From an uncultured Actinomycetes bacterium (lineage in GTDB: Bacteria; Actinomycetota; Actinomycetes; Nanopelagicales; Nanopelagicaceae), in NCBI GenBank assembly GCA_903874255.1, contig CAIQRN010000019.1, forward strand, positions 1-45,660: a DNA stretch of 45,660 bases, written 5' to 3'. Under the pieces are notes generated by a model that saw nothing but the letters and a program-made list of their open reading frames with translations, made no database searches and was not told the DNA's origin. The position numbers and the translations under genes were made by a program. Positions 1,353-22,166 of the stretch are shown one piece after another. Each line of letters starts with the position of its first letter. The first letter of the stretch is position 1.

Positions 1353-1429
1353 TGGGGTGAGCGACGGGGCTCGAACCCGCGACATCTCGGACCACAACCG
1401 AGTGCTCTACCAGCTGAGCTACGCCCACC
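1353..1429 (-). tRNA. tRNA-His (anticodon GTG), CCA encoded
   Basis: The minus strand reads GTGGGCG...CGCTCAC. The anticodon stem is CTCGG/CCGAG around TTGTGGT, so the anticodon is GTG. Discriminator C73 is followed by an encoded CCA (1353-1355). The base at 1429 supplies a G at position -1 opposite C73, the identity element of tRNA-His. Confidence 0.96.
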
Positions 1430-1452
1430 ATGTGGGGCAAAGTCTACCTGCT

Positions 1453-2141: not shown

Positions 2142-2172
2142 GTGGCCACATTAGCAGAAAATTGTGGCTACA
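2141..2172 (-). promoter_or_regulatory. Candidate operator pair and leaderless promoter of the toxin-antitoxin operon
   Basis: A perfect 10-bp palindrome TGTGGCCACA (2141-2150) touches the antitoxin start codon. A near-copy TGTGGCTACA (2163-2172) is centred 22 bp away, about two helical turns. A -10-like TAATGT (2148-2153, minus strand) lies 6 nt before the ATG. Bound antitoxin dimers would block this promoter. The distal copy overlaps the end of orn. This is inferred from sequence only. Confidence 0.5.
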
Positions 2173-2725: not shown

Positions 2726-2726
2726 G

Positions 2727-2800
2727 CGCGCCTGGCAGGAATCGAACCTGCGACAACCCGCTTAGAAGGCGGGTGCTCTATCCGACTGAGCTACAGGCGC
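2727..2800 (-). tRNA. tRNA-Arg (anticodon TCT)
   Basis: Minus-strand cloverleaf with acceptor GCGCCTG/CAGGCGC and discriminator G at 2727. The anticodon stem is CCCGC/GCGGG around CTTCTAA, giving TCT, and the T-arm has GGTTCGATTCC. No CCA is encoded; the next bases are C and then the orn ATG. Confidence 0.95.
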
Positions 2801-2854
2801 CTGTAGGGTCGTGAATGCTAAGTCTACCGACACATACCGATAAGGTTTCATACC

Positions 2855-4522: not shown

Positions 4523-4896
4523 TGAGATTCACAAATAAGCAGTATGTGCGTTGGGATGACTTAGATGCATTTGGCCATGTAAATAACGCTAAGTATTTAA
4601 CTTTTGCCCAAGAAGCACGTTTTGTCTGGGCCGGACTTATTGAGATGGTTGTTGCGCGCGCCGAGGTCGATTTCATGCTGCCAATCTATGAAGGCAATGT
4701 ATTTGTCGATGTTGATATTTGGGTAAGTGCAATTGGTACATCTTCATTTACTTTGGGTTATGAAATAAAGAACGGCGACCAAGTGGTTGCACGGATTAAA
4801 ACAGTCCAAGTTGTCGTGTCGATGGATACCAAGAAATCTCGACCAATTAGCCAGACCGAGCGCGAATTCTTGACCAAGTATTTAGAAACGGAGTAA
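4522..4896 (+). CDS. Acyl-CoA thioesterase, hot-dog fold (4HBT family)
   Basis: This 124-aa single-domain hot-dog protein has the 4HBT active-site segment DLDAFGHVNNAKYLTFAQEA at about 13-32. The aspartate (about D15) and the GHVNN turn are the expected catalytic and fold signatures. It probably hydrolyses an acyl-CoA in the cytoplasm; the substrate is not defined. It overlaps ettA by one base and ends 3 bp before the alpha-glucosidase gene. The pairing with ettA is common in actinobacteria. Confidence 0.88.
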   Translation: MRFTNKQYVRWDDLDAFGHVNNAKYLTFAQEARFVWAGLIEMVVARAEVDFMLPIYEGNVFVDVDIWVSAIGTSSFTLGYEIKNGDQVVARIKTVQVVVSMDTKKSRPISQTEREFLTKYLETE

Positions 4897-4899
4897 GTA

Positions 4900-6576: not shown

Positions 6577-7790
6577 TGCCAAATTCGAAGCTGCAGAAAA
6601 AAGTTGTTCGCACCCTTGCAACTGCCCAAGTCTTAAATGGTGTCGGCGTTGCAGGAACCGTTGCGGCAGGTTCACTTCTAGTTTCATCAATAACTGATTC
6701 AGAGACATTAGCTGGGCTGGCACAAACTTTTTCAGTGTTAGGTGCAGCGGCTATGGCATTACCGCTTGCGCGTTTAACTGCCAAAGGTGGTCGCCGGTTA
6801 TCACTCTCTTTCGGCTACATCGCAGGAACCATCGGCTCAGTTAGCGCAATTCTGGGTGGGTCGCATAAAAATATTTATCTGATGTTGCTTGGAACTTTCT
6901 TAGTTGGTTCAGCATCTGCTTCGGGATACCAAGCGCGCTTTGCCGCTATTGATTTAGCAACTACTGAAACACGTGCCAAGCAGTTATCTTTTGTGGTTTG
7001 GGGTTCAACAATCGGAGCAGTTGCCGGACCGAATTTAATGGATCCTGCAGGTCGATTGGCGCATCACTTTGGTTTGCCCAACCTTGTTGGCCCGTACATG
7101 ATTTCAGCTACGACGCTAGTTTTTGCAACCGTTGTGATTCAACTTTTCTTGCGCCCGGATCCATATTTGTTAGCTGAAAAACAAGCCGCAGTTAAACAAC
7201 ATAAGGGCTCTACAAAAGCGGCCTTAACCCACATACGTTCAAATCCAAAAGCGTTATTTGCGATTAGTGCAATTGCCATCGGTCACGTAGCAATGGTTTC
7301 TGTGATGGTAATGACGCCAATCCATATGAAGCATGTTGATGTCTCACTTCGAATTATCGGTTTTGTTATTAGTGTGCACGTACTTGGAATGTATGTATTT
7401 TCTCCACTTGTTGGTTCCCTCAGCGATCGAATCGGCCGTGTACGAGTCGTTCAAATTGGTGTGACGATTTTATTGCTCTCAACTTTAATCTCGGGAACCG
7501 CAAAAGCAGATGATGCCGTGCGATTAGGGATTGGTCTGTTCTTGCTTGGTCTTGGTTGGTCCTGCACCTTGATTGCTGGTTCAGCGTTTTTATCTGAATC
7601 AGTTTCAATTGAGATGCGTCCGGCATCGCAAGGCGCAAGTGATTTGGTAATGAATTTAGCCGGCGCTGGTGGCGGTGCTTTGGCTGGCCTAATTATTGGA
7701 ACGCTTAGTTATGGTTGGCTTTGCATATTTGCCGCAATACCTGTCACCGTATTAGCAGTTGCGTCACGAAAGGTTTCAAAGATTGGCTAG
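6576..7790 (+). CDS. MFS transporter
   Basis: This 404-aa integral membrane protein has about 12 hydrophobic segments and the MFS loop motif GSLSDRIGRVRVVQIG in the second half. I chose the ATG at 6576, which overlaps the alpha-glucosidase stop in TAATG, over an upstream in-frame start at 6555 that would extend into that gene. The N-terminus then reads MPNSKLQKKVVRTL. The substrate is unknown. Position suggests a sugar or metabolite, but the family also contains drug exporters. Confidence 0.86.
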   Translation: MPNSKLQKKVVRTLATAQVLNGVGVAGTVAAGSLLVSSITDSETLAGLAQTFSVLGAAAMALPLARLTAKGGRRLSLSFGYIAGTIGSVSAILGGSHKNIYLMLLGTFLVGSASASGYQARFAAIDLATTETRAKQLSFVVWGSTIGAVAGPNLMDPAGRLAHHFGLPNLVGPYMISATTLVFATVVIQLFLRPDPYLLAEKQAAVKQHKGSTKAALTHIRSNPKALFAISAIAIGHVAMVSVMVMTPIHMKHVDVSLRIIGFVISVHVLGMYVFSPLVGSLSDRIGRVRVVQIGVTILLLSTLISGTAKADDAVRLGIGLFLLGLGWSCTLIAGSAFLSESVSIEMRPASQGASDLVMNLAGAGGGALAGLIIGTLSYGWLCIFAAIPVTVLAVASRKVSKIG

Positions 7791-9048
7791 AGATCGCAAG
7801 TTTCATCCGGCTTGGATAGCGGTAATCGTTACTTTCTTTACTCTTGTAGCTACCGCAGGTTTTAGATCTGCACCCTCGGTTTTAATCATGCCGCTGGAGA
7901 TGGCTTTTGGTTGGAGCCGCGATCAGATCTCCTTAGCGATTTCAATAAATGTTTTACTGTATGGATTAACTGCGCCATTTGCCGCCGCCCTCATGGAACG
8001 ATTCACAGTGCGAAAAGTTGTTATGTCGGCATTAACAACGGTCAGCATTGGCGCATTCTTAACTACGCAAATTAATGCTCCATGGCAGTTAGTGGCAACA
8101 TGGGGAGTCATCGTTGGAATTGGTACTGGTTCTATGGCCCTAGTTTTTGCTGCCACAGTTGCCAACCGTTGGTTTGTTAAGCGCCGTGGGTTGGTAATCG
8201 GTGCACTTACGGCGGCAGCGGCAACAGGGCAATTAATTTTCTTGCCAGGATTAACGTATTTATCTGATCACTATGGATGGAAATCAATTGGTGTAACGAT
8301 CGGCTCTGCCTCTTTGATTATGGTTCCGATGATCTTTCTTTTTTTGCGCGAAAAGCCAGCGGACTTAGGTTTGCTTCCATATGGCGCACCAGATGATTGG
8401 CAGCCACCCAAGCGTTCAGAAATGAGCGCTGGTCGATTGGCATTAGTTTCTTTGAAAGAAGCAAGTGCACATAAAGATTTTTGGTATTTAGTCGGTTCTT
8501 TTTTCGTCTGTGGACTATCAACGAGCGGATTAATTGGAACGCACTTTATTCCAGCAGCCCACGATCACGGAATGGGACAAGTTGTCGCGGCATCGCTGTT
8601 AGCACTTGTTGGAGTATTTGACGTTATCGGTACTTTGTTTTCGGGATGGCTTACTGATAAATACGATCCCAGAAAACTTCTATTTTTCTACTATGGTCTT
8701 CGTGGACTTTCACTTTTCTTGCTTCCATCAATTCTATTTTCGTCGGTGCATCCATCAACGCTAGTTTTCGTTATTTTCTACGGTCTTGATTGGGTAGCAA
8801 CAGTTCCGCCAACCGTGATGCTTTGTCGCACGGTGCTTGGGCCAGATCGCGGAACGGTTATTTATGGTTGGGTTTTTGCATCACATCAAATTGGTGGTGC
8901 GATTGCAGCTTTAGGTGCCGCGGTTATTCGAGTGAAACTAGGCGATTACGCCGCAGCGTTTTATGTGAGTGGCACCCTATGTTTAATCACTAGTTACTTC
9001 GTTTTGCAGATAGCCAAGGGTAAGGATTTGGCTAGCCTTAGCGCATGA
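7783..9048 (+). CDS. MFS transporter (monocarboxylate/oxalate-formate-like)
   Basis: This 421-aa membrane protein has about 12 predicted segments. The opening FRSAPSVLIMPLEMAFGWSR resembles MCT-like MFS proteins (compare LGVFFPPL...FGWSR in that group), and GWLTDKYDPRKLL is the central loop motif. The TTG at 7783 is preferred: GAAAGG lies 9 nt upstream and the overlap with the previous gene is only 8 bp. An in-frame start at 7759 would add 8 residues. It may carry a carboxylate; substrate unproven. It ends in an ATGA overlap with glbO. Confidence 0.85.
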   Translation: MARDRKFHPAWIAVIVTFFTLVATAGFRSAPSVLIMPLEMAFGWSRDQISLAISINVLLYGLTAPFAAALMERFTVRKVVMSALTTVSIGAFLTTQINAPWQLVATWGVIVGIGTGSMALVFAATVANRWFVKRRGLVIGALTAAAATGQLIFLPGLTYLSDHYGWKSIGVTIGSASLIMVPMIFLFLREKPADLGLLPYGAPDDWQPPKRSEMSAGRLALVSLKEASAHKDFWYLVGSFFVCGLSTSGLIGTHFIPAAHDHGMGQVVAASLLALVGVFDVIGTLFSGWLTDKYDPRKLLFFYYGLRGLSLFLLPSILFSSVHPSTLVFVIFYGLDWVATVPPTVMLCRTVLGPDRGTVIYGWVFASHQIGGAIAALGAAVIRVKLGDYAAAFYVSGTLCLITSYFVLQIAKGKDLASLSA

Positions 9049-9419
9049 GTACGCATTACGAACGCCTTGGTGGCGAAGCCTTTTTTGCTGATTTGGTGTC
9101 GCAGTTTTATGCATATGTTGCGGTGGACCCAATTTTACGTCCTATGTATCCAGATAGTGATTTGCAAGGTGCAGCAAAACGTTTGCAGTGGTTCTTAGAG
9201 CAGTATTGGGGCGGGCCAACAACGTATCAAGAAAACCGCGGCCACCCGCGCCTTCGCATGCGTCATTCGGAGTTTCATATCGATACTGCTGCGCGCGATG
9301 CTTGGCTTAATGCAATGCACGCGGTTGTAGATGGAATGGAAATAGAGGCCGAACTTCGCGCCGAATTGTGGAGCTATTTAGAGATGGCAGCAAATGCCAT
9401 GGTTAATCAACCAGATTGA
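9045..9419 (+). CDS. glbO: Truncated haemoglobin, group II (GlbO-like)
   Basis: This 124-aa 2-over-2 globin carries the group II pattern GHPRLRMRHSEFHI, with proximal haem ligand H74. Y35 is in MYP (CD1 position), an aromatic pair FY lies at 21-22 (B10 region), and W87 is at the G8 position (DAWLNAMH). Group II members bind O2 tightly and are linked to oxygen/NO handling. Translation is coupled to the upstream MFS gene (ATGA). Its 3' end overlaps the convergent channel gene by 13 bp. Confidence 0.93.
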   Translation: MSTHYERLGGEAFFADLVSQFYAYVAVDPILRPMYPDSDLQGAAKRLQWFLEQYWGGPTTYQENRGHPRLRMRHSEFHIDTAARDAWLNAMHAVVDGMEIEAELRAELWSYLEMAANAMVNQPD

Positions 9420-9955
9420 GATTCATTTCCAACTTTTAGAATTTCACCATTTCGTAAGTACCACAATGTTCCGCGTGGATCGCGTACACATGTAACGCGA
9501 AGCCCAACTTTTTCAACAACGCCAGTTACTTCTAATACATCAACGGTATCGCCAACACCATATTGATCTTCAACCAACATAAATATTCCAGACAACACGT
9601 CCCGAACTAAAGTTTGTGCACCAAGACCTAAAGCGACTCCAAGAATTCCAGCTGAAGCAATAATCGGTCCTAAGTTAAATCCCAATTCGCCGAGCGCCAT
9701 AGCAACTGCAACGACCCAAATAACTGTTTTTAAAGTGCTAGATAAAACTCCGCCAATTGTTCGTGCGCGTTCTTTTTGTCGAGCAACAATATTGCGCGGT
9801 CCGGGAACAAGATCGGCAGTTGCTAATCGATTCATGGCACGTGTAATTGCCCGTGATCCAAAGGTTTGGGTCAACATGGCCGAAATAAGGATGATCGCAA
9901 CTCGAAGGGGGGTGCCGCTAATCCAGTCGAGAATATTGCGCAGTGAGTCGCTCAT
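9407..9955 (-). CDS. Short MscS-family mechanosensitive channel
   Basis: This 182-aa protein has about two to three membrane segments and the MscS pore/beta signature (GVALGLGAQTLVRDVLSGIF, then EDQYGVGDTVDV). It ends a few residues after the RNGEILKVGN strand, so the large C-terminal cytoplasmic alpha/beta vestibule of canonical MscS (about 286 aa) is missing. No frameshift is obvious, and the stop lies inside the end of glbO. It may be a minimal channel for release under hypo-osmotic shock, as expected in fresh water, or a decaying gene. A TAAAGT hexamer lies 8 nt before the ATG. Confidence 0.82.
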   Translation of the reverse strand: MSDSLRNILDWISGTPLRVAIILISAMLTQTFGSRAITRAMNRLATADLVPGPRNIVARQKERARTIGGVLSSTLKTVIWVVAVAMALGELGFNLGPIIASAGILGVALGLGAQTLVRDVLSGIFMLVEDQYGVGDTVDVLEVTGVVEKVGLRVTCVRDPRGTLWYLRNGEILKVGNESQSG

Positions 9956-10066
9956 AAATGCAGACTTTAGCCAAAACTTTACCTAAATGTCGCTAGTCAA
10001 TACCCACGAGGTCGGGTGTTTTGAGGCAAGATAAAGCAATCGATGCGGGTCCACGAAGGGACGGAC

Positions 10067-10582
10067 ATGTCGCGAACGTTGGTTTTAAACGCCACCTATG
10101 AACCGTTGGGTGTCATAACAGAACGTCGTGCCCTGATCCTTGTACTTAATCACCGCGCAACCATGATTGAAAACTCTGGTTCGGTTCTTCATTTTTCTGG
10201 TGGAGAGATTGAACTTCCATCGGTCATTCGATTAAATAAATTTGTTCGTATTCCATATCGACATGCAGTGCCATTATCTAGGCGCGCAATTTTTGCTCGT
10301 GATGGTGGTCGATGTGTTTACTGTTCAGCCCCTGCAACATCAATCGATCACGTAATTCCACGAAGTCGTGGCGGTGGGCACAATTGGGAAAATGTTGTTT
10401 CGGCCTGTCATAAATGCAACCACTTAAAGGCCGATAAACAGCTCAAAGAAATTGGTTGGAAATTGCGCCAACTTCCGCGCGAACCCGTTGGTGCCGCGTG
10501 GCGCATTCTGGGAACGGGTCAAACAAATGCCAGATGGCTTCAATATCTTGAGCCCTTTGGTGTGGCTGCGGCAACGGCTTAG
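10067..10582 (+). CDS. HNH endonuclease domain protein (conserved actinobacterial)
   Basis: This 171-aa protein starts MSRTLVLNATYEPLG, the conserved N-terminus of a widely distributed actinobacterial family (Rv2469c-like in gene order). The ATG at 10067 is preceded by GAAGGGA at good spacing, so the upstream ATG at 10043 is rejected. An HNH module lies at about 85-135: a CVYC zinc knuckle, ATSIDHVIPRSRGG with D-H, N in WENVVSACHKCNHLK, then CxxC and the last H. Likely a chromosomal DNA-processing nuclease; its physiological role is not established. Confidence 0.88.
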   Translation: MSRTLVLNATYEPLGVITERRALILVLNHRATMIENSGSVLHFSGGEIELPSVIRLNKFVRIPYRHAVPLSRRAIFARDGGRCVYCSAPATSIDHVIPRSRGGGHNWENVVSACHKCNHLKADKQLKEIGWKLRQLPREPVGAAWRILGTGQTNARWLQYLEPFGVAAATA

Positions 10583-10588
10583 AGCATT

Positions 10589-10594
10589 TACACT
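10589..10594 (+). promoter_or_regulatory. Candidate -10 of a leaderless promoter
   Basis: TACACT is separated by 6 nt (TCACCC) from the ATG at 10601, the spacing expected when transcription starts at the start codon. There is no ribosome-binding site. No clear -35 element is visible. Confidence 0.45.
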
Positions 10595-10600
10595 TCACCC

Positions 10601-10786
10601 ATGCATTTATTTATGAACGCGGTAGAAGATGGCGTAATCGATGGTCCAGGATTATCTGTGACTGAAACAGTGATTACTTACGTTGTTATTCCAATTGCAC
10701 TCTTTGCAATCATCGCAATTGTTTCATGGATCGCAAGTGCGCCGCGTAAAGATAAATCAGAGTCATCAATTACTTCAATTAATTAA
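10601..10786 (+). CDS. Small single-pass membrane protein, function unknown
   Basis: This 61-aa protein has one strongly hydrophobic helix at about 24-46 (TVITYVVIPIALFAIIAIVS) followed by a short basic, serine-rich tail (RKDKSESS). Small membrane proteins of this type sit in this slot between the HNH gene and pepN in other actinobacteria as I recall the order; I know no function. It starts leaderless after TACACT and ends in a 4-bp convergent overlap with pepN. Composition and codon use look genuine, and it fills the gap exactly. Confidence 0.72.
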   Translation: MHLFMNAVEDGVIDGPGLSVTETVITYVVIPIALFAIIAIVSWIASAPRKDKSESSITSIN

Positions 10787-13323
10787 GAATCTAATTTCTG
10801 AACTTTTAATGCACGGATAACTCCGTCTTGAGATTCCTTAACTAATTTACGCAAAACTGCAGGGGCATCTTTTCCTTCACTGTTGAGCCATGCATTTGTT
10901 TTATCCAAAGTGCTTTGGCTAATAATCCATGATGGATACATGCCCGTTACGAACTTGGCTGCGCCTTCATAAGATTTGGAGCTCCACTCACTAAGTAAGT
11001 TAGCAAAGTAGAGATCGACAAATGATTCAAGGAGATGACGTTGGATTGGGCGCTGGAATCCGGCAACCAAGCCGGAGCGAATTGAAGTAACCACCGATTC
11101 ATCCATCACTTTGTTAAATGCATAAGCTTTGGCTTCTGAATTTGGCATCGCAGCTTTACAGGTTTCGTAGGCGATATTTCCTGAAGTAGTTGAATCGGCT
11201 GCATATTCAGCATCTATTTCGCTCTGCGTTGTTGCGCCACGTTCAGTTAAGGCAATCAAGAAATCCCAACGTCGATCTGCATCGACCTTTAAGCCAGCAA
11301 TTTCTCCGTTGAGAATTCCACGAGTTCTCTTTATTTGATCTTCTGTATGTGCATTTGCGGCAAATGCGCGCGAAAACAGAAGTTGTAAATCACTACTTGG
11401 TGCGCTGGCTTGCAACAAGTTCCAGAAACCCTCGGCCAACTTTTCGCGATATGAATTTCGATTCGCATCAACTGCATATGCTTCAATTGATGTTACGAGT
11501 TGGGCTATTACGATATTAACAATCGCATCATCACTTTCTCCTGCTAGGCCAGCTAAAGCGATATCAAGGTAATCAGCGGTAGAAATCTCGGCATCTCGAT
11601 GCATATCCCAAACAGCGCTCCAACAAAGTGCTCGCGCAAGAGGCTCATTTAATACGCCGAGGTGAGATTTCAAGGTTGCGATGGAATGATCGTCAAAGCG
11701 AAGCTTGCCGTATGAAAGATCGCGATCATTGAGCAGTAATAAATCTGCTGATTTCTCGCCAATAAGTTCAGTCACTGGCGTGCTTGCACCAGTTACATCC
11801 AGCTCTACACTCTTACGCAGAGACAATGAACCATCTTTAATATCGTACAAACCAACAGCTAGACGATGTGGGCGAAGTTCACCCGAACCTTGAGGAACAA
11901 GGGGAGCTTCTTGAGTTACTGAAATAGTTTTGTATGCACCGTTTTCGATTTCAATAGCTGGACGCAGAGTATTTACTCCTGCAGTTTGTAGCCAGGTATT
12001 TACCCATGAATCGAGTTTGCGGCCACTGGCAGCTTCTAGTTCAACTAAAAGATCATTAAGTGTTGTGTTTCCCCAAGCATGCTTAGCGAAATACTTTTGT
12101 AACCCTGCAAGAAATTCTGGGCGGCCAACATGTGCAACAAGTTGATGTAAAACCGATGCTCCCTTTGCGTATGTGATTCCATCAAAGTTTGCATTAACAG
12201 CTTCCATATCAACCATGTCGGCAATGATTGGGTGAGTAGAGGAAAGTTGATCTTGGCGATAAGCCCAGTTCTTGCGAGCAGAGTTGAATTCAGACCATGC
12301 AGCGCCTTTGAAACGAGTTGCCTCAGAGAGTGCAAGGTAGGAAGACCATTCTGCAAATGATTCATTGAGCCAAAGGTCATCCCACCAAGACATCGTGACC
12401 ATATCGCCAAACCACATGTGCGCCATTTCGTGAAGGATTGTATTTGCACGAGATAGATATGATTTTTCTGGCATATGGCTGCGGAAAACCAAAACATCTT
12501 CGCGGAAAGTTACTGCTCCTGCATTTTCCATTGCACCAAAGTTAAAATCAACCACAGCAATTTGATCATATTTTTCAAAAGGATAAGCAAGCCCAAAAAC
12601 CTTCTCGAAATATTCAAAACCTTGTTTTGTAACTTCGAAAATATCCTCTGGATCAAGGTACTGCATCATTGATTTGCGGCAATAAATTCCTAGGGGGATT
12701 TCTTTCTGGCCCTTGTATACATCATGCACATAAGAATATGGTCCGGCGATTAATGCATCCAAGTAGGTTGCGATACGAGGAGTGGTGGTGAATTTCCATT
12801 CAAGGGAATCACCCTTTACAACTTTGGATTCAACCGGGTTATTTGAAACTGCTTCCCAATGTGCAGGCGTTGTAGCGGTTAAAGTAAATGTTGCCTTTAA
12901 CGATGGTTGGTCAAAGCAAGGGAACATATTGCGAATATGAGCGGTTTCTCCCTGCGAATAGAGATAAACCTCGCCATCGGCAGGATCAACGGAGCGCTGT
13001 AAACCCTCACCTGATTTTGAATACTCGGCTTCGATTTCAATAATTAAGAGATTCTCAGCGGCTAAATTAGTAAGGAAAATACTTTCACCATCAAAGTTTG
13101 AAGTATCTACCGCATCACCATTAAGGGTTGCACTAATAACCTTTCGACCAACTGCATCAATGAAAGTTGAATATCCAGGTTTGTTGCACGTAAATGAAAC
13201 CTCAGATTTTGAGTAAAAAGTTTCGTCGCCTTTAGTGACATCCAGGGTGACCACATAACTATTTACATAAAGATGGTCGGCACGATCTTTGGCTTCTGCA
13301 CGACTCAAATTTAAACCTGGCAC
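10783..13323 (-). CDS. pepN: Aminopeptidase N (M1 zinc metallopeptidase)
   Basis: This 846-aa cytosolic M1 aminopeptidase removes N-terminal residues in the last stage of peptide breakdown. Visible features: the GAMENAG exopeptidase motif at about 263-269, zinc site HEMAH at 298-302 with the third ligand in LNESFAEW about 19 residues later, and a long C-terminal helical ERAP-like domain. The GTG start at 13323 has AGAGGAG 6 nt upstream. Length fits the actinobacterial PepN family. It diverges from trmB across a 73-bp gap. Confidence 0.95.
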   Translation of the reverse strand: MPGLNLSRAEAKDRADHLYVNSYVVTLDVTKGDETFYSKSEVSFTCNKPGYSTFIDAVGRKVISATLNGDAVDTSNFDGESIFLTNLAAENLLIIEIEAEYSKSGEGLQRSVDPADGEVYLYSQGETAHIRNMFPCFDQPSLKATFTLTATTPAHWEAVSNNPVESKVVKGDSLEWKFTTTPRIATYLDALIAGPYSYVHDVYKGQKEIPLGIYCRKSMMQYLDPEDIFEVTKQGFEYFEKVFGLAYPFEKYDQIAVVDFNFGAMENAGAVTFREDVLVFRSHMPEKSYLSRANTILHEMAHMWFGDMVTMSWWDDLWLNESFAEWSSYLALSEATRFKGAAWSEFNSARKNWAYRQDQLSSTHPIIADMVDMEAVNANFDGITYAKGASVLHQLVAHVGRPEFLAGLQKYFAKHAWGNTTLNDLLVELEAASGRKLDSWVNTWLQTAGVNTLRPAIEIENGAYKTISVTQEAPLVPQGSGELRPHRLAVGLYDIKDGSLSLRKSVELDVTGASTPVTELIGEKSADLLLLNDRDLSYGKLRFDDHSIATLKSHLGVLNEPLARALCWSAVWDMHRDAEISTADYLDIALAGLAGESDDAIVNIVIAQLVTSIEAYAVDANRNSYREKLAEGFWNLLQASAPSSDLQLLFSRAFAANAHTEDQIKRTRGILNGEIAGLKVDADRRWDFLIALTERGATTQSEIDAEYAADSTTSGNIAYETCKAAMPNSEAKAYAFNKVMDESVVTSIRSGLVAGFQRPIQRHLLESFVDLYFANLLSEWSSKSYEGAAKFVTGMYPSWIISQSTLDKTNAWLNSEGKDAPAVLRKLVKESQDGVIRALKVQKLDS

Positions 13324-13396
13324 TTGTTGCTCCTCTGGATAATGCGACGGTATGGCGCTTTTGTAAGTTCTAATCCAATCATGACAGAGTGCGCCT

Positions 13397-14059
13397 ATGG
13401 AACGCCCATCGGTACGCAGTTACAGCATCCGTGGTTCCCGTATTACTGAGGCCCAGCGAGCTGCCAAAGATGCTCTTCAGAAGGTTTATGGAATTCCTGT
13501 TTCTGCCAACAAAATTTATCTACGAGAGATATTCCCCACAGCAGAAAAAATCATCATGGAGATTGGCTTTGGCATGGGGGAAGCCACCGCAATAATCGCA
13601 AAAAATAACCCACACAATGGCTACATCGCCGTTGATGTTCACCCACCAGGAATTGGCAAACTCTTAGCTCGAATAGTCGAAAATGAACTTACGAATCTTC
13701 GAGTAATTGAAGACGACGTTCACGTAGTTTTGCCATACATGTTCGAAGATGAATCACTGGATGGAATTCATCTGTATTTCCCAGATCCTTGGCCTAAGAA
13801 AAAACATAATAAGCGCCGAATAGTAAACGCAGGATTCTTAGCTTTGATCCACCCTAAATTAAAAAGAGATGGATTCATTCACATTGCAACTGATTGGGTT
13901 CCGTACGCGATTAATATCGAAGAAGTATTTGCTGGTTCAGAGTTATTTACTGGCGGAGTAATTGCAAAACCAGATTCACGCCCGGTAACAAGATTTGAAG
14001 GTCAAGGGATCGACAAGGATCACCAAGTTACTGATTTGATGTATTTTCGTAAGCAGTAA
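13397..14059 (+). CDS. trmB: tRNA (guanine-N7-)-methyltransferase
   Basis: This 220-aa SAM-dependent enzyme makes m7G46 in tRNA variable loops. SAM-site motif MEIGFGMGEATA lies at about 52-64, the catalytic/family signature FPDPWPKKKHNKRR at about 129-142, and the conserved RPVTRFEGQG near the C-terminus. The ATG at 13397 fits the family N-terminus. It ends in a 32-bp convergent overlap with rpiB. Confidence 0.95.
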   Translation: MERPSVRSYSIRGSRITEAQRAAKDALQKVYGIPVSANKIYLREIFPTAEKIIMEIGFGMGEATAIIAKNNPHNGYIAVDVHPPGIGKLLARIVENELTNLRVIEDDVHVVLPYMFEDESLDGIHLYFPDPWPKKKHNKRRIVNAGFLALIHPKLKRDGFIHIATDWVPYAINIEEVFAGSELFTGGVIAKPDSRPVTRFEGQGIDKDHQVTDLMYFRKQ

Positions 14060-14483
14060 TTTTGTTGATGCGTCGAACATGGCGCTCATCATTTGTAAAT
14101 GGTGTCTCAATAAATGCGTCAATAATCGCTTTACATTCATCGATGGAATGCATGCGCCCACCAATTCCGACAACATTTGCATCATTATGTTCCTTGGCTA
14201 ATTTTGCAGTTTCAACGCTCCAAGCAAGCGCGGCACGAACGCCTTTAACTTTGTTGGCCGCAATCTGTTCGCCATTTCCGGAGCCACCTAAAACAATTCC
14301 TAGCGAGCCCTCATCTTTAACAGTTGCTAGCGCCGCTGGAATACAAAAATCTGGATAATCATCAAGTGCGTCATATTCATGCGGCCCATGATCTTCAACA
14401 ACGTGACCTTTTGACTGTAGATATTCAACAAGTGCGCCCTTTAGCTCGAGGCCTGCATGGTCACTGCCGATATGAATTCTCAT
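14028..14483 (-). CDS. rpiB: Ribose-5-phosphate isomerase B
   Basis: This 151-aa LacAB/RpiB protein interconverts ribose-5-P and ribulose-5-P in the pentose phosphate pathway. Landmarks: GSDHAGLELKG at 6-16 and the substrate loop GGSGNGEQIAANK at about 68-80. As in the actinobacterial type, serine stands where the E. coli enzyme has its catalytic Cys, and the Glu of NGEQ is the expected base. Further conserved are HNDANVVGIGGRM and the basic residues near the end. Convergent with trmB. Confidence 0.95.
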   Translation of the reverse strand: MRIHIGSDHAGLELKGALVEYLQSKGHVVEDHGPHEYDALDDYPDFCIPAALATVKDEGSLGIVLGGSGNGEQIAANKVKGVRAALAWSVETAKLAKEHNDANVVGIGGRMHSIDECKAIIDAFIETPFTNDERHVRRINKITAYENTSNQ

Positions 14484-15525: not shown

Positions 15526-16962
15526 ATGAAGGGCAAAATTGCTCTCACCGTATTAACTTTGCTTGCAACATTAATCAGCAGCCCGCAAGCATTTTCTACA
15601 AATAAAGCAACAGTAAAAAAAGCAACGATAACAATTAAAAAAGCTGGAAGATCGCCAACATCAATTCCAAACACAATTCTTAGTGGCAATAGCGTGCCCG
15701 CAAAAACCATTGGTATTGATGGAGATTTTTACATCGACATTAAGAATGCAAATCTTTACGGACCAAAAACAAAAGGCATTTGGAAACTTGCAACATCACT
15801 TCGCGTTCCTGCACTGCCTGCAATTCCCGGAACGGACGGTGTTAAAGGAAATACAGGAGAGCAAGGTGTTGCAGGAGCAAAAGGTGAAGTTGGAGTTGCC
15901 GGCGCAAAAGGTGAAATTGGCGCAACAGGTTCTGCGGGAACAAATGGAATTAACGGAGTTACGGGAGCGACCGGAAGTTCTGGTGCTACTGGTGCTACTG
16001 GAGCAAAAGGAGATACAGGCAATGTTGGAACTACAGGCGCAAGAGGCGAAGTTGGAACTACAGGTGCAAAAGGTGACATCGGTGCAACTGGTGGTATTGG
16101 AAACAGTGGTGCCAGAGGAGAAACCGGATTAATTGGTTCAACCGGATCTGTTGGTTTAACAGGTGCAATTGGAACGGCAGGAACAAATGGATCTAATGGC
16201 GCTGTCGGTGCAACTGGTGCAACTGGTGCAACTGGTGCGACAGGTCCAACTGGGTCTACTGGTGCAACTGGTGCGAGTGGCGCAACAGGTCCAACAGGAT
16301 TAACTGGAAGCAATGGTGCAACAGGAAATGTTGGAACAAATGGAACGAATGGATCTAATGGCTCCGACGGAATTCAAGGAGTTAAAGGCGACACAGGAAA
16401 CACCGGAGCAACAGGAAGTAAAGGCGACACAGGAAACACTGGTGGAGTAGGTGCTGATGGCTCAAACGGAATTCAAGGAGTTAAAGGCGATACAGGAAAT
16501 ACTGGTGGAGTAGGTGCTGATGGTGCGCAAGGCAGCGCAGGAATCTCAAACTCAACGTTTATAGAAATTGGGCAAACATTTGTCTCTACTGCAGTTGCTG
16601 GAGGGGTGACAAGTTGGATGCCTGTTGCTTCGCTGACTTCTCCCGGGTCCTATACATTCGAAATAATTTATGATGGCATTTTTTCAGTAGACACTTTTGA
16701 AACAAAAATTCGATTAGGGCTCACGCTTGGCTCGACCAACAGCACGACAACGTTTGCATATCGAGTCTTTACATCAGATTCAGTCGCTTATCTTGATTCA
16801 AGCGGTGGTCGGCATTATCAATTCATTGCTATCGGGGTAATTGTTACGAATACAACAAATGTTTTGCGACTCAAAATAACTGATCAATTGGGCTCGACGG
16901 GTGGCGTCGAAATATCTTTCACCGGAAATGCCCTAATTAATAAAGTGGGGTCAATAGGCTGA
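15526..16962 (+). CDS. Secreted collagen-like (Gly-X-Y) repeat protein
   Basis: This protein of 478 aa has a signal peptide (about 1-24) and an N-terminal module with [20 protein letters not shown] (63-82), a segment often found just before bacterial collagen repeats. An uninterrupted collagen domain of 80 Gly-X-Y triplets follows (residues 102-341), rich in GAT, GNT, GDT and GAK triplets. The C-terminal domain is beta-rich and about 137 aa long, probably for trimerisation or attachment. No LPXTG or transmembrane anchor is seen, so it is released or non-covalently bound. Possible roles are adhesion, particle attachment or a phage-receptor surface. Thr and Ala dominate the Y position, suggesting stability without hydroxyproline. 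Confidence 0.9.
15829..16548 (+). repeat. Collagen-coding triplet repeat region
   Basis: A 9-bp periodic region encodes 80 consecutive Gly-X-Y triplets. It includes a near-perfect run of GGTGCAACT units around 16207-16240. Two larger duplicated blocks around 16370 and 16468 both encode [13 protein letters not shown]. Such repeats expand or contract by slippage, so length may vary among strains. Confidence 0.88.
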
Positions 16963-16971
16963 AAACTATGG

Positions 16972-17042
16972 AGCGGGTGACCGGGATCGAACCGGCATGG
17001 CCAGCTTGGAAGGCTGGGGCTCTACCATTGAGCTACACCCGC
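16972..17042 (-). tRNA. tRNA-Gly (anticodon TCC), intact copy rebuilt at the element junction
   Basis: Minus-strand cloverleaf with acceptor GCGGGTG/CACCCGC and discriminator T. Anticodon stem CCAGC/GCTGG surrounds CTTCCAA, giving TCC. No CCA is encoded. Everything from the anticodon loop to the 5' end lies in a 38-bp segment repeated at 22129-22166. Its 5' half and all upstream DNA therefore come from the integrated element. Confidence 0.95.
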
Positions 17043-17043
17043 A
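17006..17043. repeat. att core, left copy (part of the intact tRNA-Gly)
   Basis: 38 bp from TTGGAAGG to CACCCGCA, identical to 22129-22166. It covers the anticodon loop through the 5' end of tRNA-Gly plus one base. The 7-bp anticodon-loop sequence TTGGAAG is flanked in the host by the inverted stem CCAGC/GCTGG, the likely integrase core sites. Confidence 0.93.
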
Positions 17044-17074
17044 AATCGAATTTGCCCTGCGTAGATGAGCGTAA

Positions 17075-17117
17075 ATCCGTGCAAATCATAGGTTTTGAGG
17101 CTATGACCTGCACGGAT
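17075..17117. repeat. Large imperfect inverted repeat at the left end of the element
   Basis: Two 17-nt arms (17075-17091 and 17101-17117) pair with 2 mismatches around the 9-nt loop GTTTTGAGG. It lies between the end of the DUF3987 operon and tRNA-Gly, both read leftwards. It could terminate the operon, although no clear T-run follows, or be a protein-binding site. Its left arm contains GTAAATCCGT...AAATCAT, also found upstream of the Xis-like gene. Confidence 0.6.
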
Positions 17118-17162
17118 AATACACCGTTCATCACCGTAGAAATCCACTCGATGCCATCAGAT

Positions 17163-17220
17163 TAGGCACGAATTAGGCACGAAATTAATCGGCTCGATCT
17201 CAGGATTTTGTAGGCACGAA
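17163..17220 (+). repeat. Three TAGGCACGAA direct repeats, candidate integrase arm sites (left)
   Basis: Copies lie at 17163-17172, 17174-17183 and 17211-17220. The first two are 11 bp apart, about one helical turn. The same pair with the same spacing is present near the right end. This fits arm-type sites for the N-terminal domain of a tyrosine integrase. Confidence 0.65.
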
Positions 17221-17230
17221 ATCAAGCTGC

Positions 17231-18715
17231 TCACCATCGCAAGGATAAGAGATCAGCTCTGGGGTAGATGCGATCATCCTCTAGCTCAATCCAGAATCCT
17301 TGATCCAGAGTTTTCAGAGCATCCTCTATCGCTTGCATCTTGCCCTCTTTTGCCCATGCCTGTTGCTTGATTGATTGCTGCAACCCGCCATCTCCGCGAA
17401 TTGAAAATGAAATCTGCGAATTCACATCCCGAACATCCCGAATCGCTGGAATTCTCTCAGCCATCCAATCGAGAATCCGCTGCTCTGGCATCCTCTCGAT
17501 TTTTAGATGATCCGCGCATTTGCGATGGGCAAGCAAGAAATCTGCCAAGCAAATCGTTTTCTCTAAGCAATCATCATCGATTTGGGTTGCTGATGGATTA
17601 TCTGAGAGAGTAAAGAGTGCAGCTAGCGTGATGAGATTGCCAGCTAGTCGCTGACCAAATCCATCGCGTTGATTTTCTGGGTTACGCAATCGGGATTCCC
17701 AATCATCTCGAAATCTCTGAAATAGGACTCGCCCCGTATTGGTGAGATCAAGAATCCGATTCTCATTGATAGCAAGAATTGATTGCAATACTCGATTCCA
17801 ATCACCCATCAGATCAGGATCAATCGGGTATTTCTCATGCGCTCGCGTATCTCGAAATCCGACATTTGATTTGGCTACCAGAGTGATGAATCGCCCCGTC
17901 ACGCCTCGATTGCTTGCGCTCTTGTCTGCGTGTAGCTGTAACCAGACATCAGGCTGCACCGATGTGCAAATTGCCAGAAATGGATCATTGACTACACCAT
18001 CACCGCGCCCAATTCGATGAGACTTAATCTGATCGCCTGTCGTAGCTTTTAACACCGTGCCCCAGCGGGCATTTGATCCGTAGCTCTTGCCAGACATTTG
18101 ATCGAAAAAATCTCCCTCAGCATCTAACATCCCCAAATGTTTTGCAGATTGCATTTTCTCAGTAAGTGAATCGGGGGTTATGTCACCGCCTACCAGCAAC
18201 ATCGGCAGCTCATCAGGTTTTGATTCTCTGACTAGCTCTATCGCCTCGATGAGATCGGCTTGCGTTGCTGGGGTTGATTTGGATGTTTTTTTCATGCTCG
18301 ACATTGAATCCTTGATTGCTTTTAATCGTGCAAGAGCAATCTCATGCTGTTGCTGTTGCAAATCAATGTGAGCTCTAGCCTCACGCTGCATCTCAATTTC
18401 ATAATCAATCAAGGGTTGGCGCAATAGATTCATCACTTGAGATTTGCCCTCAGCCGTTGGCGCGATGTTGCAGATATAGATCGATGAGTGCTCGAGCCAA
18501 TCCGATGAAATGCGAGCGCGAATCTTGCCACGCGTTGCCGTAGCGATACATCCCAGAGCTGTACCCATAGGGATAACGGGATCAATCTGGAATTGATTAG
18601 ATAGGGATTGCACCATGTCACGCAAGAGAGTGGGCAAGAGATCAAGATCAAGCTCTGGATGTTGCGCATACTCGGTGCGAATTGGTCGGGGTGCTGGTAA
18701 TGATTTATCAATCAC
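17231..18715 (-). CDS. DUF3987 P-loop protein, probable element replication ATPase/primase-helicase-like
   Basis: This 494-aa protein matches the DUF3987 pattern: an N-terminal LDLLPTLLRDMVQSLSNQ segment, then a hydrophobic strand and Walker A APTAEGKS at 85-92. A Walker B-like LPMLLVGGD follows, and the C-terminal region is helical. Such proteins are common on phages, plasmids and satellites and are thought to act in replication; biochemical function is poorly defined. The GTG start overlaps the upstream gene stop in GTGA. It is the last gene of the element operon, so its transcript would run on toward tRNA-Gly. Confidence 0.83.
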   Translation of the reverse strand: MIDKSLPAPRPIRTEYAQHPELDLDLLPTLLRDMVQSLSNQFQIDPVIPMGTALGCIATATRGKIRARISSDWLEHSSIYICNIAPTAEGKSQVMNLLRQPLIDYEIEMQREARAHIDLQQQQHEIALARLKAIKDSMSSMKKTSKSTPATQADLIEAIELVRESKPDELPMLLVGGDITPDSLTEKMQSAKHLGMLDAEGDFFDQMSGKSYGSNARWGTVLKATTGDQIKSHRIGRGDGVVNDPFLAICTSVQPDVWLQLHADKSASNRGVTGRFITLVAKSNVGFRDTRAHEKYPIDPDLMGDWNRVLQSILAINENRILDLTNTGRVLFQRFRDDWESRLRNPENQRDGFGQRLAGNLITLAALFTLSDNPSATQIDDDCLEKTICLADFLLAHRKCADHLKIERMPEQRILDWMAERIPAIRDVRDVNSQISFSIRGDGGLQQSIKQQAWAKEGKMQAIEDALKTLDQGFWIELEDDRIYPRADLLSLRW

Positions 18716-19044
18716 GCTGCATCACCGCCCATCAGATTTGCAATTAATTTTCTGCGGTTAAATTCGGCAGCTCTTAATTGATCCTCTAGTGACCAGATGG
18801 ATTTCAATCCGTGCGCTCGCAAATGTGTATCAGCTTTCAATTTTGATTCGTACCAACCAGCATCATGCAGATAATCATTTTCCCAAATGTCGCGTTCGGT
18901 GATGATTGGCGATGACTTGCCGAATATGAATTCTTGATTCGGTTTTAGTCGGTTGATGGCTGTAATATTGTCAGTAATTGATTCGCCATCAGGATAATTG
19001 ATTTGCCCCGTGCCTAGCGTGCGGGGCTTTTCATTTGTGATCAT
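18712..19044 (-). CDS. Hypothetical protein of the element
   Basis: I do not recognise this 110-aa protein. It is soluble and charged, with a Trp-rich middle (DIWENDYLHDAGWYES at about 52-67) and a C-terminal helix (LEDQLRAAEFNRRKLIANLMG). It is translationally coupled on both sides: ATGA with the Xis-like gene and GTGA with the DUF3987 gene. That placement suggests a partner of replication or excision, such as a loader, or a regulator; this is inference. Confidence 0.72.
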   Translation of the reverse strand: MITNEKPRTLGTGQINYPDGESITDNITAINRLKPNQEFIFGKSSPIITERDIWENDYLHDAGWYESKLKADTHLRAHGLKSIWSLEDQLRAAEFNRRKLIANLMGGDAA

Positions 19045-19244
19045 TTATTTACACCCACAATTCGATTGCGTTGGATGTAGGCATCTAAATCAGTAATGAG
19101 AAACATCGTGTGCTTGCCCATTTTTACAGCTGGGATTCCATGAGCTCGATAGCGTTGCAACCATCGCTCGGATACATTGAGATGAATCGCTGCCTCTTTA
19201 GGTTTTAAGAGTGCAGATAAATGCTTTTCTTTTAATTCTTGCAT
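19041..19244 (-). CDS. Excisionase/AlpA-like helix-turn-helix DNA-binding protein
   Basis: This 67-aa protein matches the HTH_17/MerR-like excisionase fold: LLKPKEAAIHLNVSERWLQRYRAHGIPAVKMGKHTMFLITDLDAYI, split as helix-turn-helix (12-31), wing (32-46) and final helix. Such proteins act as Xis factors or activators of integrase-linked operons. It starts the xis-orf110-DUF3987 cluster. The upstream gap carries a motif repeated at the element's left end, consistent with binding at both places. Confidence 0.82.
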   Translation of the reverse strand: MQELKEKHLSALLKPKEAAIHLNVSERWLQRYRAHGIPAVKMGKHTMFLITDLDAYIQRNRIVGVNK

Positions 19245-19270
19245 GTGAATTTTGACAGCACGGGGCTGAT

Positions 19271-19287
19271 GTAAATCCGTAAATCAT
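19271..19287. promoter_or_regulatory. Candidate regulator/Xis-binding motif upstream of the Xis-like gene
   Basis: GTAAATCCGTAAATCAT matches the left-end sequence GTAAATCCGT (17071-17080) plus AAATCAT (17083-17089), differing only by a 2-bp insertion. It lies 27 bp upstream of the Xis-like start. A reverse-complement TTAGGCAC-like word lies close by (19310-19320). Function is inferred. Confidence 0.4.
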
Positions 19288-19327
19288 GCGCTGCGGGTTT
19301 TGCCCGTGTGCCTAATTTCCTATTCTG

Positions 19328-19807
19328 TTAGATAGAAATCGATTGCAGCGATGATCTTTCTTTCGCTGTCGTTGGCGCGTGCGCTGCAAGAATTGTTTTC
19401 AGCATAACTTTTATTTCGCTGGGTAATGATTGAGCCTCTACGGGGCTGCTATCGCCCTGAAATGTGTACTTGATTGGGATGTATAACTTGCGGGGCAGAT
19501 TAAGAGTGATGCGATCGATGATCCATGTACGCGCGCGCCTAATCGGATGAAATACACGATCCATCTTGAGAATTGAATTCACATAGAAATGAGATTTGAG
19601 CCGATCTCTAGCTGCGGATTCACTTGCTGCATCGCCTCGATAGATGATGATTGCCTCGGTGAATACAGGGTGCAATTCTTTCGCAGCTTGCAATCTCTCA
19701 ACCTCTGGCAAGGCTATGAGCTGTGTGAAAATCTGATTGGCATTTGATACAGCATTGAAACCCGTGCGTGAATACAGGGTTGCCAGATGCTTGCTTTTGT
19801 TCGCCAT
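19328..19807 (-). CDS. Hypothetical protein of the element
   Basis: I do not recognise this 159-aa protein. It has an Ala/Leu helical N-terminal half (LIALPEVERLQAAKELHPVF), a basic middle (DRVFHPIRRARTWIIDRITLNLPRKLYIPIKY) and a short C-terminal helix (PSEIKVMLKTILAAHAP). No membrane segment or signal peptide is seen. A TAATCT -10-like hexamer lies exactly 6 nt before the ATG, so it is probably leaderless and separately regulated, next to the gene-free region. Candidates are a replication accessory factor, a helper-phage modulator or a DNA-binding protein. Confidence 0.65.
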   Translation of the reverse strand: MANKSKHLATLYSRTGFNAVSNANQIFTQLIALPEVERLQAAKELHPVFTEAIIIYRGDAASESAARDRLKSHFYVNSILKMDRVFHPIRRARTWIIDRITLNLPRKLYIPIKYTFQGDSSPVEAQSLPSEIKVMLKTILAAHAPTTAKERSSLQSISI

Positions 19808-20185
19808 ATATCAAGATTAACCACCACCACCGACAAATTATTCCGAGCATCGGGATGTTAGGGATGCGATTCGATGATCCTCAAATGATGGATGGGGGTC
19901 TTTTTTGAGAGTACATCTAAACCCATGACATCCATTTCTTGTTATTTCCCTAGAAATCCCCACGATTGAATTGGGTTAATTCGTGCAGCTTTTGATTGAT
20001 TCTGGATGATCTCGATTGATCTGGGGGATTCTGGGCGTTTGTCGGGGATTTTGGGGAGGTACGAGACACGGATAGGGGCGGTTAATTCTGCACGGTTAAA
20101 AAACTCGCATTTCAGTACTCGATTGATGCCTCTCGGATTATCACGACACTAGCAATCAGAATCAGCGGGTTAACCCGCCAGCATC
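19808..20185. other. Gene-free region of the element, candidate replication origin
   Basis: This 378-bp stretch has no credible gene. It holds a TAATCT promoter hexamer (19814-19819, minus strand) and a G-rich tract with four runs of three or more G (20023-20056). A direct repeat GGGGATT(C/T)TGGG recurs at 20024 and 20044, 20 bp apart, and GATTGAT...CTGG words recur at 19994 and 20014. GGTTAATTC occurs twice (about 19974 and 20080). A perfect palindrome closes the region. The repeats look iteron-like, but an origin is only inferred. Confidence 0.4.
20165..20178. repeat. Perfect 14-bp palindrome GCGGGTTAACCCGC
   Basis: The palindrome lies 7 bp downstream of the HNH stop on the minus strand. 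With no central loop and no T-run it is more likely a dimeric protein-binding site than an intrinsic terminator. Confidence 0.5.
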
Positions 20186-20563
20186 TCATCCCTTAACAAA
20201 TTCCAGAGCCTCATCCAAGCTCTTAAATGCTGCGAGATATACCCGAGATGTCATTGATCCTAATTGCCTCTCTATGTATTCATCAGTAATGATCAACCCT
20301 GATTCATCGATCCTCATGTTTTGATTGCGTTGCTGGGCTGTTGGTCTCTTGCGTGAGAAATTACCAACACAATTTCTACTCTTTCGCCCGTGAGCAGGTC
20401 TCAGATTATCGAGCTCATCTCCACCGCCAAGAGAGACGGGCACGATGTGATCGATAGTGTCTGCACCCTCTTGATGACATAACCAACACTCATCACCGTA
20501 ATAATCAAACACTTGTTTTCTTAATTTCTGCAAGGTTGCGCCCCGCGTGCGTGTGTCTTTCAT
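20186..20563 (-). CDS. HNH endonuclease of the element
   Basis: This 125-aa protein has an HNH module at about 20-70: CWLC (C26, C29), DTIDHIVPVSLGGGDELDNLRPAHG with D38-H39, N53 and H58. It resembles small phage HNH proteins found beside terminase or integrase genes. A 55-aa C-terminal tail, with helix RVYLAAFKSLDEALEFV, is not recognised. Its start overlaps the integrase stop (TGATG), so it is translated with the integrase. It could act in element processing or packaging, in interference with a competing phage, or as a homing nuclease. Confidence 0.85.
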   Translation of the reverse strand: MKDTRTRGATLQKLRKQVFDYYGDECWLCHQEGADTIDHIVPVSLGGGDELDNLRPAHGRKSRNCVGNFSRKRPTAQQRNQNMRIDESGLIITDEYIERQLGSMTSRVYLAAFKSLDEALEFVKG

Positions 20564-21924
20564 CAGCTCACTCTCTTTTGATTGATTAGATTTAATGTTT
20601 TACTCACATCAGGATTCAAGGATTCTGCAACGATCTGATCGCGCTCGCTTGATCCATGTAGATACATTTGTGCAGCTTGCGCCGTTGATTGCCCTGCCCT
20701 GCGTTGCAAATCTTTAATGCTTGCACCGTTGGCGAGCGCAAGAGATTGCCCTGTATGGCGTAGATCGTGAAAATGTAGATGATCTAAATTGAGTCTGCGC
20801 TTGGCTGTAACAAACCACGATTTTCGCCCTTGATAAAGTGGCAACCCGTTGGATGTAGTAAAGATCAGAGCATCAGGATTGGGATCGGTAACAAACTTTT
20901 CTAGATGCTCATTGATCGCACCCATCAGATCATCAGGGATCGGCACGGTGCGCACGCTGGATTCTGTTTTCGGGGCAACAAACATTTGAGGATCGGTTGA
21001 GTATTTTGTGAGCTGATGTTCGATCTTGAGTGTTCGATGTAGTGGGTTGATGTGCTTGCGCTGTAATCCAAATAATTCACTCGATCTGATCGATGTAAAT
21101 GCTGCAAGGATCACCGAGAGTTTGTATCTCTCTGGCACTTCACTTGCGAGCGCAGCAAGCTGCTCAAGGGTTGCAATAGGGCGTTCAGGGTGTTTGGGCT
21201 GCCCTGCACCCTTAATTCGGCAAGGATTTTGCTCGATGATTTCATCCTCTAGAGCTACATTGAAAATGGCGTGTAGAAATGTGTACGCCTTAGCAAGCTG
21301 CACGATTCCAGAATTCTTTTCTCGATAGCTCTTAATAATTGGCGCACCTGATTTGATCCATTGATTGATGAGCTCTTGATCGATGCGCCCGTGTAACGCT
21401 GTAGGAATTCCCTCAGATCGCGCCCATGCTCGCGCTGGATGAGCTCTAGTTTTGATCTCTAATTGACCAGATACACATTGAGATTGGATCAGCTGATACC
21501 ACTTTCGCACATCGGCACGGGTGATCTCTGTAATCAACATTTCAGACAGACAGAATCCGTCTATTTGTCTAAATAAATAGTTTTTCGATAGATGCTCATA
21601 ATTGCGCACCGTTGCAGCTCTGAGAGGCTTATGGGTAAGCCGTGCCCCTGACGCTGGATCAAGATACATCTCAACCCGTTGGCGCAAGGTGTAGCTCTGG
21701 GATTTCTTTCGCGCTCGCTCTATTTCATAGGGGTTGATTCCCTTATCAAGATCAAGCTCTAATTGATTCAAGAATTTACGCGCTTGATCATAGGTTGCAA
21801 ATGTCATCGGCTTATCATCGAGAGTGCGAGCAGCTTGCTGTACCCCATCTAAGAAATACCGTGCCTGATACTTACCTGATGCGAGCTCGCGGATAGTGCC
21901 AAATTGTTTTCTGATCATAATCAT
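20563..21924 (-). CDS. int: Tyrosine site-specific integrase
   Basis: This 453-aa phage-type integrase has an N-terminal arm-binding region (about 1-75), a core-binding SAM-like domain (about 76-250) and a C-terminal catalytic domain. Catalytic residues visible: R280 (TSIRSSELFGL), K319 (APKTESSVRTVP), H386 and R389 (HFHDLRH) and nucleophile Y421 (AQMYLHGS). The usual GHSS histidine is glutamine here (AGQST, Q412). I chose the ATG at 21924; a longer reading from 22032 adds an unlikely Cys-rich leader. A TAATCT hexamer (21951-21956) is a candidate -10. Confidence 0.92.
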   Translation of the reverse strand: MIMIRKQFGTIRELASGKYQARYFLDGVQQAARTLDDKPMTFATYDQARKFLNQLELDLDKGINPYEIERARKKSQSYTLRQRVEMYLDPASGARLTHKPLRAATVRNYEHLSKNYLFRQIDGFCLSEMLITEITRADVRKWYQLIQSQCVSGQLEIKTRAHPARAWARSEGIPTALHGRIDQELINQWIKSGAPIIKSYREKNSGIVQLAKAYTFLHAIFNVALEDEIIEQNPCRIKGAGQPKHPERPIATLEQLAALASEVPERYKLSVILAAFTSIRSSELFGLQRKHINPLHRTLKIEHQLTKYSTDPQMFVAPKTESSVRTVPIPDDLMGAINEHLEKFVTDPNPDALIFTTSNGLPLYQGRKSWFVTAKRRLNLDHLHFHDLRHTGQSLALANGASIKDLQRRAGQSTAQAAQMYLHGSSERDQIVAESLNPDVSKTLNLINQKRVS

Positions 21925-22014
21925 TTCGCCATTTCGTTTGATGTATGTACAGATTAGATTTCTGCACGCACATTGATTGATTGCCATCAGGGATGTACGG
22001 GATGCGCACATTTG

Positions 22015-22035
22015 TAGGCACGAATTAGGCACGAA
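22015..22035 (+). repeat. Two TAGGCACGAA direct repeats, candidate integrase arm sites (right)
   Basis: Copies at 22015-22024 and 22026-22035, 11 bp apart, exactly mirror the left-end pair in sequence and spacing. They lie between the integrase start and the right att core. Confidence 0.65.
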
Positions 22036-22128
22036 ATTGATTTTTTACGATTTTGCGAGCGCATCACCGTAAGAAAATCGGTGCTGACCTGCGCATTTGA
22101 TGGGCGGGAATTTTCGATGTGTAGGCGG

Positions 22129-22166
22129 TTGGAAGGCTGGGGCTCTACCATTGAGCTACACCCGCA
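22129..22166 (-). repeat. att core, right copy: leftover 5' half of tRNA-Gly
   Basis: This is identical to 17006-17043 but lacks the tRNA 3' half; beyond the anticodon loop the sequence changes to element DNA. It is the original chromosomal 5' half, still joined to the host promoter region on its right, and is not a functional tRNA. Confidence 0.93.

Follow-up and report, generated by a model that had tools for sequence, protein, structure and literature searches.

The 45,660-nt stretch of contig CAIQRN010000019.1 analyzed here (the window) comes from a freshwater actinobacterium and holds a 5,123-bp element (17044–22166) inside a tRNA-Gly gene. We give a probability of about 0.5 to the reading that this integrative element is intact, minimal and dependent on a helper, and of the phage-satellite type represented by the phage-inducible chromosomal minimalist islands (PICMIs). 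Gene order speaks for a satellite: a gene overlapping int, followed by alpA, a small gene and a DUF3987 gene, equals the PICMI order int-iolg-alpA-up1-prim, with P159 as an extra gene. Because the order is equal, we infer the same life cycle; the element would presumably be carried in phage particles. An initial annotation of 17231–20563 had proposed a satellite or tycheposon-like element with Int, an Xis-like protein, HNH, DUF3987 and two orphan proteins of 159 and 110 aa. All six proteins are present at those sizes; the range holds five of their genes but omits int and both ends of the element.

Boundaries and integration site

The element ends in a perfect 38-nt direct repeat (17006–17043 and 22129–22166) that is the 5' half of tRNA-Gly. 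The first copy is the attachment core within the intact tRNA-Gly(TCC) gene (16969–17042, minus strand; called by ARAGORN and Rfam RF00005) and forms the junction at the tRNA side; the second is the displaced tRNA-Gly 5' half. Since the element brings a 5' half identical to the one it displaces, the tRNA gene remains whole. At empty sites in congeners, the joined flanks of the window align unbroken across the junction, for example at 90% over 363 bp, so the insertion was precise, far beyond chance. Both attB and the exact attP are known, attP being the left and right ends of the element with a single core copy between them. Integration at the tRNA 5' half is unlike the usual integration at the 3' end, and it parts the tRNA and its native promoter. 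The tRNA 3' end was itself considered as the integration point, and was ruled out by the att data and the same-site relatives. The left flank of the site encodes a collagen-like repeat protein (15526–16962) whose length varies among congeners.

Both arms of the element carry a repeated decamer, TAGGCACGAA. The left arm (17044–17230) has three copies, at 17163, 17174 and 17211, together with a conserved promoter-like stretch for tRNA-Gly on the minus strand; the right arm (22015–22041) has two, at 22015 and 22026; there is no other copy in the window. These repeats are as expected of arm-type sites of the integrase. A perfect tandem of the decamer also occurs in the right arm of an island in congener G127, and a scan for the tandem arm motif across all viral contigs (IMG/VR, 2.9 million contigs) gave two matches, one of them (L188) immediately upstream of a homologous integrase.

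The promoter-like block GGTGTANNAT (GTGG-ATTT on the minus strand, about 17 nt) lies 71–73 nt from the core. All 8 testable occupied sites have it, whereas the 21 empty sites do not, and 40 kb of the window contain no copy. A perfect GGCACG-N5-GGCACG stands at +120 to +122 from the core in the window and in congeners G243, G246 and G207. We interpret the block as a predicted replacement promoter, and the left end as probably retained because it drives tRNA expression. A consensus promoter scan of the element returned fewer sites than its shuffles, and the only informative promoter evidence comes from comparing the left arms.

Gene content

All six genes are on the minus strand, in the order int, HNH, P159, HTH_17/AlpA-like, P110, DUF3987. 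The tyrosine integrase is annotated at 20563–22032 (PF00589, 1e-13; phrog_1, 7e-52). Because its annotated GTG falls within an arm site, we place the true start at about 21924 (MIMIRKQFG), a probable start based on alignment of the N-terminus with relatives. Int residues 196–224 (about 21360–21450) match weakly to Lsr2-type DNA-binding profiles (PF23359, 0.003; phrog_1223, 0.007), and this segment is missing from the integrase relatives. The HNH endonuclease gene (20186–20563; PF01844, 3e-6; phrog_338, 6e-11) overlaps the int stop with its start codon by 1 nt at 20563 (TGATG). Beyond it lies the largest non-coding stretch, 378 bp (19808–20185) without open reading frames of 70 aa or more, which is a candidate origin and/or packaging site.

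The 159-aa orphan P159 (19328–19807) is followed by the AlpA/Xis-like HTH_17 protein (19041–19244), with predicted roles in excision and control (PF12728, 2e-10; phrog_66 excisionase, 9e-6; also the TIGR01764 excisionase family, below cut-off). Next come the 110-aa orphan P110 (18712–19044) and the DUF3987 protein (17231–18715), a P-loop replication protein of helicase/primase type (PF13148, 2e-54; phrog_2373 DNA helicase, 4e-42). The HTH_17, P110 and DUF3987 reading frames are joined by 4-nt overlaps on both sides of P110.

Family searches of the element proteins showed that none of the six genes is structural or codes for a terminase, a relaxase or FtsK, bearing out the earlier observation that structural and conjugation genes are missing; nor did they find PF01580, the profile of FtsK/SpoIIIE-type Tra, or any capsid-remodeling or packaging-redirecting family. 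The initial annotation had offered the two orphans as candidates for helper interference, a suggestion that gained no support. Neither P159 nor P110 matched any protein family or had relatives among phages or viral contigs; among 251 genomes of the order, P159 had just two marginal, unconvincing matches. The structure predictions proposed for them gave no reliable fold, with mean pLDDT of 48 for P159 and 57 for P110 in AlphaFold run without homologs. Defense models had no meaningful match among the element proteins, and a PDB sequence search with DUF3987 and HNH returned nothing useful.

Comparison with PICMIs and a proposed life cycle

PICMIs are proven phage satellites of Vibrio, whose 6.1 kb hold int, iolg, alpA, up1, prim (DUF3987) and up2 (PMC10803314). 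They are recognized by colocalized int (PF00589), alpA (PF05930/PF12728) and prim (DUF3987/DUF5906), and modeled with PF00589, PF12728 and PF13148 (PMC10803314); the element has int, alpA and a DUF3987 prim colocalized likewise. The likeness extends to size and layout, with six genes in the 5–7 kb range: an int-overlapping gene, an AlpA of the PF12728 kind and, before DUF3987, a single small gene. HNH stands at the iolg position and overlaps int by 1 nt, where iolg overlaps int by 1, 4 or 13 nt (PMC10803314). P110 stands at the up1 position, and the DUF3987 protein is the counterpart of prim. A capsid, terS or packaging-redirecting gene is missing from both; the helper of PICMIs is non-resident, as that of the element would be.

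The differences are several. The element lies in tRNA-Gly and not at fis, its host is actinobacterial, its int-overlapping gene is an HNH, P159 is inserted between HNH and alpA, and no up2-type defense gene is recognized. Moreover helper, induction and packaging, proven in PICMIs, are proposed for the element. Since integration next to fis is a PICMI hallmark according to the authors who described them (PMC10803314), we do not class the element as a PICMI; on present evidence it functions most like one.

PICMI excision needs int, iolg and alpA, with alpA alone sufficient to trigger it; replication needs prim; and the DNA is packaged by a virulent phage (PMC10803314). A corresponding cycle for the element would begin when a helper phage infects and the AlpA-like protein is made. 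Int and the AlpA-like protein would excise a 5.1-kb circle, and the DUF3987 protein would drive its replication. Element DNA, perhaps as a concatemer, would be packaged by the helper terminase, and the element HNH would assist in excision or in cleavage at cos/pac. Once injected, the element would be inserted at tRNA-Gly by Int, the left arm supplying the replacement tRNA promoter. Should Int act in trans, the same arms could also serve islands that bring cargo but no int.

Two actinobacterial phage satellites, Mulch and Flayer of Streptomyces, follow the reverse plan, with genes for encapsidation but without key replication genes (PMC10690885).

Related elements in other actinobacteria

Across the class, some relative of DUF3987 is present in 24 of the 395 genomes. 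In two other actinobacteria, L057 and L058, we found the same module of HTH_17/alpA, small gene(s) and DUF3987, with int at the far end. The L057 element is 8.2 kb and bounded by 80-bp tRNA-Lys repeats (positions 6312–14430 of its locus), and the L058 element is 7.8 kb and bounded by 48-bp tRNA-Gly 3' repeats. In both, one strand runs from int through variable genes, HTH_17 and small gene(s) to DUF3987, with a few cargo genes on the opposite strand, and neither has recognized structural genes. The slot beside int holds a 482-aa zinc-ribbon protein in L057 and other genes in L058. Recurrence of the module points to an architecture rather than prophage decay.

Integrative and conjugative elements of actinomycetes (AICEs) also resemble the element, in their tyrosine integrase, HTH protein, DUF3987, actinobacterial hosts and tRNA sites, as in Streptomyces NZ_CP107792.1 (L185). 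They add an FtsK-type Tra and a Prim-Pol, which DUF3987 accompanies, and their order, PrimPol-DUF3987-xis-int, puts int last where the element has it first. The Streptomyces-type loci that we examined (L062, L065, L066 and L185) run from Prim-Pol through DUF3987 to int, and two of them, L062 and L185, have FtsK. The element is not an AICE, because it has no FtsK; nor is it a relaxase-bearing mobilizable element or a prophage. It could still be a reduced AICE that has lost tra, mobilizable or remnant, as described for some Frankia elements. The int, HTH protein and DUF3987 shared with these four loci speak for such an origin, as do reports of elements without tra or rep (PMC3218068). We consider it improbable: the element has neither FtsK nor Prim-Pol; its order differs, with int first and alpA before DUF3987; and most tyrosine-recombinase AICEs insert at the 3' end of a tRNA gene (PMC3218068), whereas the element is in the 5' half. 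Further, a tree built from 34 DUF3987 proteins places those of the int-first elements (window, L057 and L058) in one group (85/76, 86% of bootstraps) outside the AICE clade. Because the window protein is on a long branch, we take this grouping as suggestive only.

Motif avoidance and codon use

We compared motif counts in window positions 17044–22128 with those in dinucleotide-preserving shuffles. Several short motifs are missing from the element (observed/expected GGCC 0/13, CCGG 0/10 and ACGT 0/7), CTTC plus GAAG is at 1/43, and CATG and ATAT are low too. The avoidance is seen in both halves of the element and is absent from host DNA and from three cargo islands. The L057 element has its own missing motif, GATC, at 0/28. 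No C5 methyltransferase that would explain the missing GGCC and CCGG was found in the host. Codon use is also far from the host's, with CCC at 0.31 versus 0.04 and AGA at 0.25 versus 0.06.

This is the pattern to be expected of DNA that enters cells unmodified time and again and is often exposed to restriction while double-stranded, as in phages and small plasmids. Small plasmids are indeed known to avoid motifs, and the signature does not discriminate between a phage and a small-plasmid carrier. Thus it also agrees with a different account, in which the element is a helper-independent or plasmid-assisted integrative replicon that spreads by transformation, by vesicles or by hitching on conjugative elements. 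Int and Xis would excise it, DUF3987 would replicate it like a small plasmid, and phage particles would have no special part. That account, a serious one to which we nonetheless give clearly less weight than to a satellite, also draws on the pairing of DUF3987 with Prim-Pol in the circular Streptomyces element L185 and in the Streptomyces-type loci; among plasmids, DUF3987 had three distant matches, one of them this AICE-like circle. Telling against a replicon are the six genes without relaxase or conjugation gene, and the fact that the sole proven function of this gene order is satellite life (PMC10803314). The HNH bears on it as well.

Links to phages

Relatives of the element HNH adjoin the terminase large-subunit gene, directly before it, or are fused to it, in every viral contig tested with PHROGs. 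By sequence, the element HNH thus belongs to a phage terminase-linked group, which also tells against the replicon account. In staphylococcal islands, HNH proteins encoded by phages take part in cos packaging, according to work cited as reference 28 in PMC5052747, and by analogy a packaging role for the element HNH is plausible. No terminase of phrog_9, the main PHROG family, was found in the host genome. A helper would therefore have to infect, and a resident helper is not likely.

The satellite reading also faces contrary results, which we collect here. Searches of IMG/VR, in a check for occurrence outside chromosomes suggested by the initial annotation, found no copy of Int, DUF3987, P159 or P110 among the 2.9 million contigs and no exact 37-nt core; IMG/VR holds contigs judged viral, so satellites could be missing from it. 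This negative agrees with the replicon account. Neither a helper nor a shared packaging site was found. DUF3987 is common to conjugative AICEs and phages, so that gene content alone cannot fix the carrier. The complete element was seen in one genome only, and its DUF3987 has the long branch noted above. Each of these weighs against a phage satellite. The original proposal therefore stands in part: the element is compact, intact and replication-capable, with a PICMI gene order and a terminase-linked HNH, but the helper, packaging site and particle occurrence that it implied did not appear. Blastn of the whole element against phage genomes gave tRNA matches only.

Islands at the same site in congeners

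We searched 135 congeneric genomes, and 90 of them matched at the end with the tRNA-Gly. Not counting the window, at least eight have a second core, or a left end like that of the element, at the same tRNA-Gly. The DUF3987 gene was found in 1 of 251 family genomes, and Int likewise, apart from one integrase at 35% identity in G109.

These islands are small and without int. That of G246 has 4.07 kb between cores (reverse-complement coordinates 2980 and 7054 of L164, G246:C18) and encodes a phosphotriesterase-family protein, a cytochrome P450 and two short-chain dehydrogenase/reductase (SDR) genes. G127 has 1.93 kb with one 386-aa gene, G207 has 1.82 kb with a Gfo/Idh/MocA gene, G606 has 0.5 kb, and those of G216 and G200 are sub-kilobase. 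The elements of G243 and G605 are cut by contig ends. Judging from the shared ends, the int-less islands may have been placed by an integrase of this element's family.

A larger prophage in relatives, which the initial annotation had named as one finding that would speak against a satellite, did not turn up: in congeners the tRNA-Gly sites are empty or hold smaller int-less islands. That the six genes are a degraded remnant of a larger prophage, as the phage relatives of integrase, HNH and DUF3987 might suggest, seems to us very improbable, given also six intact close-packed genes, perfect att repeats, intact arm sites and no pseudogene. L057 and L058 are equally compact, and the strong motif avoidance has been kept up.

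The islands recall tycheposons, which are known from Prochlorococcus, reported in freshwater Methylophilaceae and range over 4–200 kb (PMC10872708). The element is similarly tRNA-bound, with a tyrosine recombinase and a streamlined aquatic host, and the congeners add same-site islands with metabolic cargo; tycheposon-like behavior, here a tRNA hotspot with int-less metabolic cargo, is seen at this site in congeners. The differences are that the element is close to the lower size limit of tycheposons and has no evident metabolic cargo of its own; the likeness is one of site and cargo.

Freshwater actinobacteria of this type have small genomes and rank with the most abundant bacteria in lakes. 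More tentatively than for the element itself, we propose that they harbor a PICMI-like satellite family that uses the 5'-half tRNA-Gly site and brings a new tRNA promoter, whose HNH would engage cos-type helpers and whose Int would move int-less metabolic islands in trans, phage particles shuttling host-useful genes. If true, the satellite and the same-site metabolic cargo islands would form a concrete, testable gene-transfer route in freshwater actinobacteria, and the minimalist satellite plan, so far reported in complete form only from Vibrio, would extend to another phylum.

Two further loci in the genus deserve mention. On the other side of tRNA-Gly, G127 carries a 100-aa fragment like an integrase N-terminus (L166:913–1215, minus strand), a possible relic of an older insertion. 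Adding to the case for a satellite, G109 has a second element-like cluster (L125, G109:C4, about 1270–8290; ends not resolved), with int, a 150-aa gene overlapping it by 4 nt, HTH_17, small genes, a DUF3631 helicase, a phrog_338 HNH and an NYN protein.

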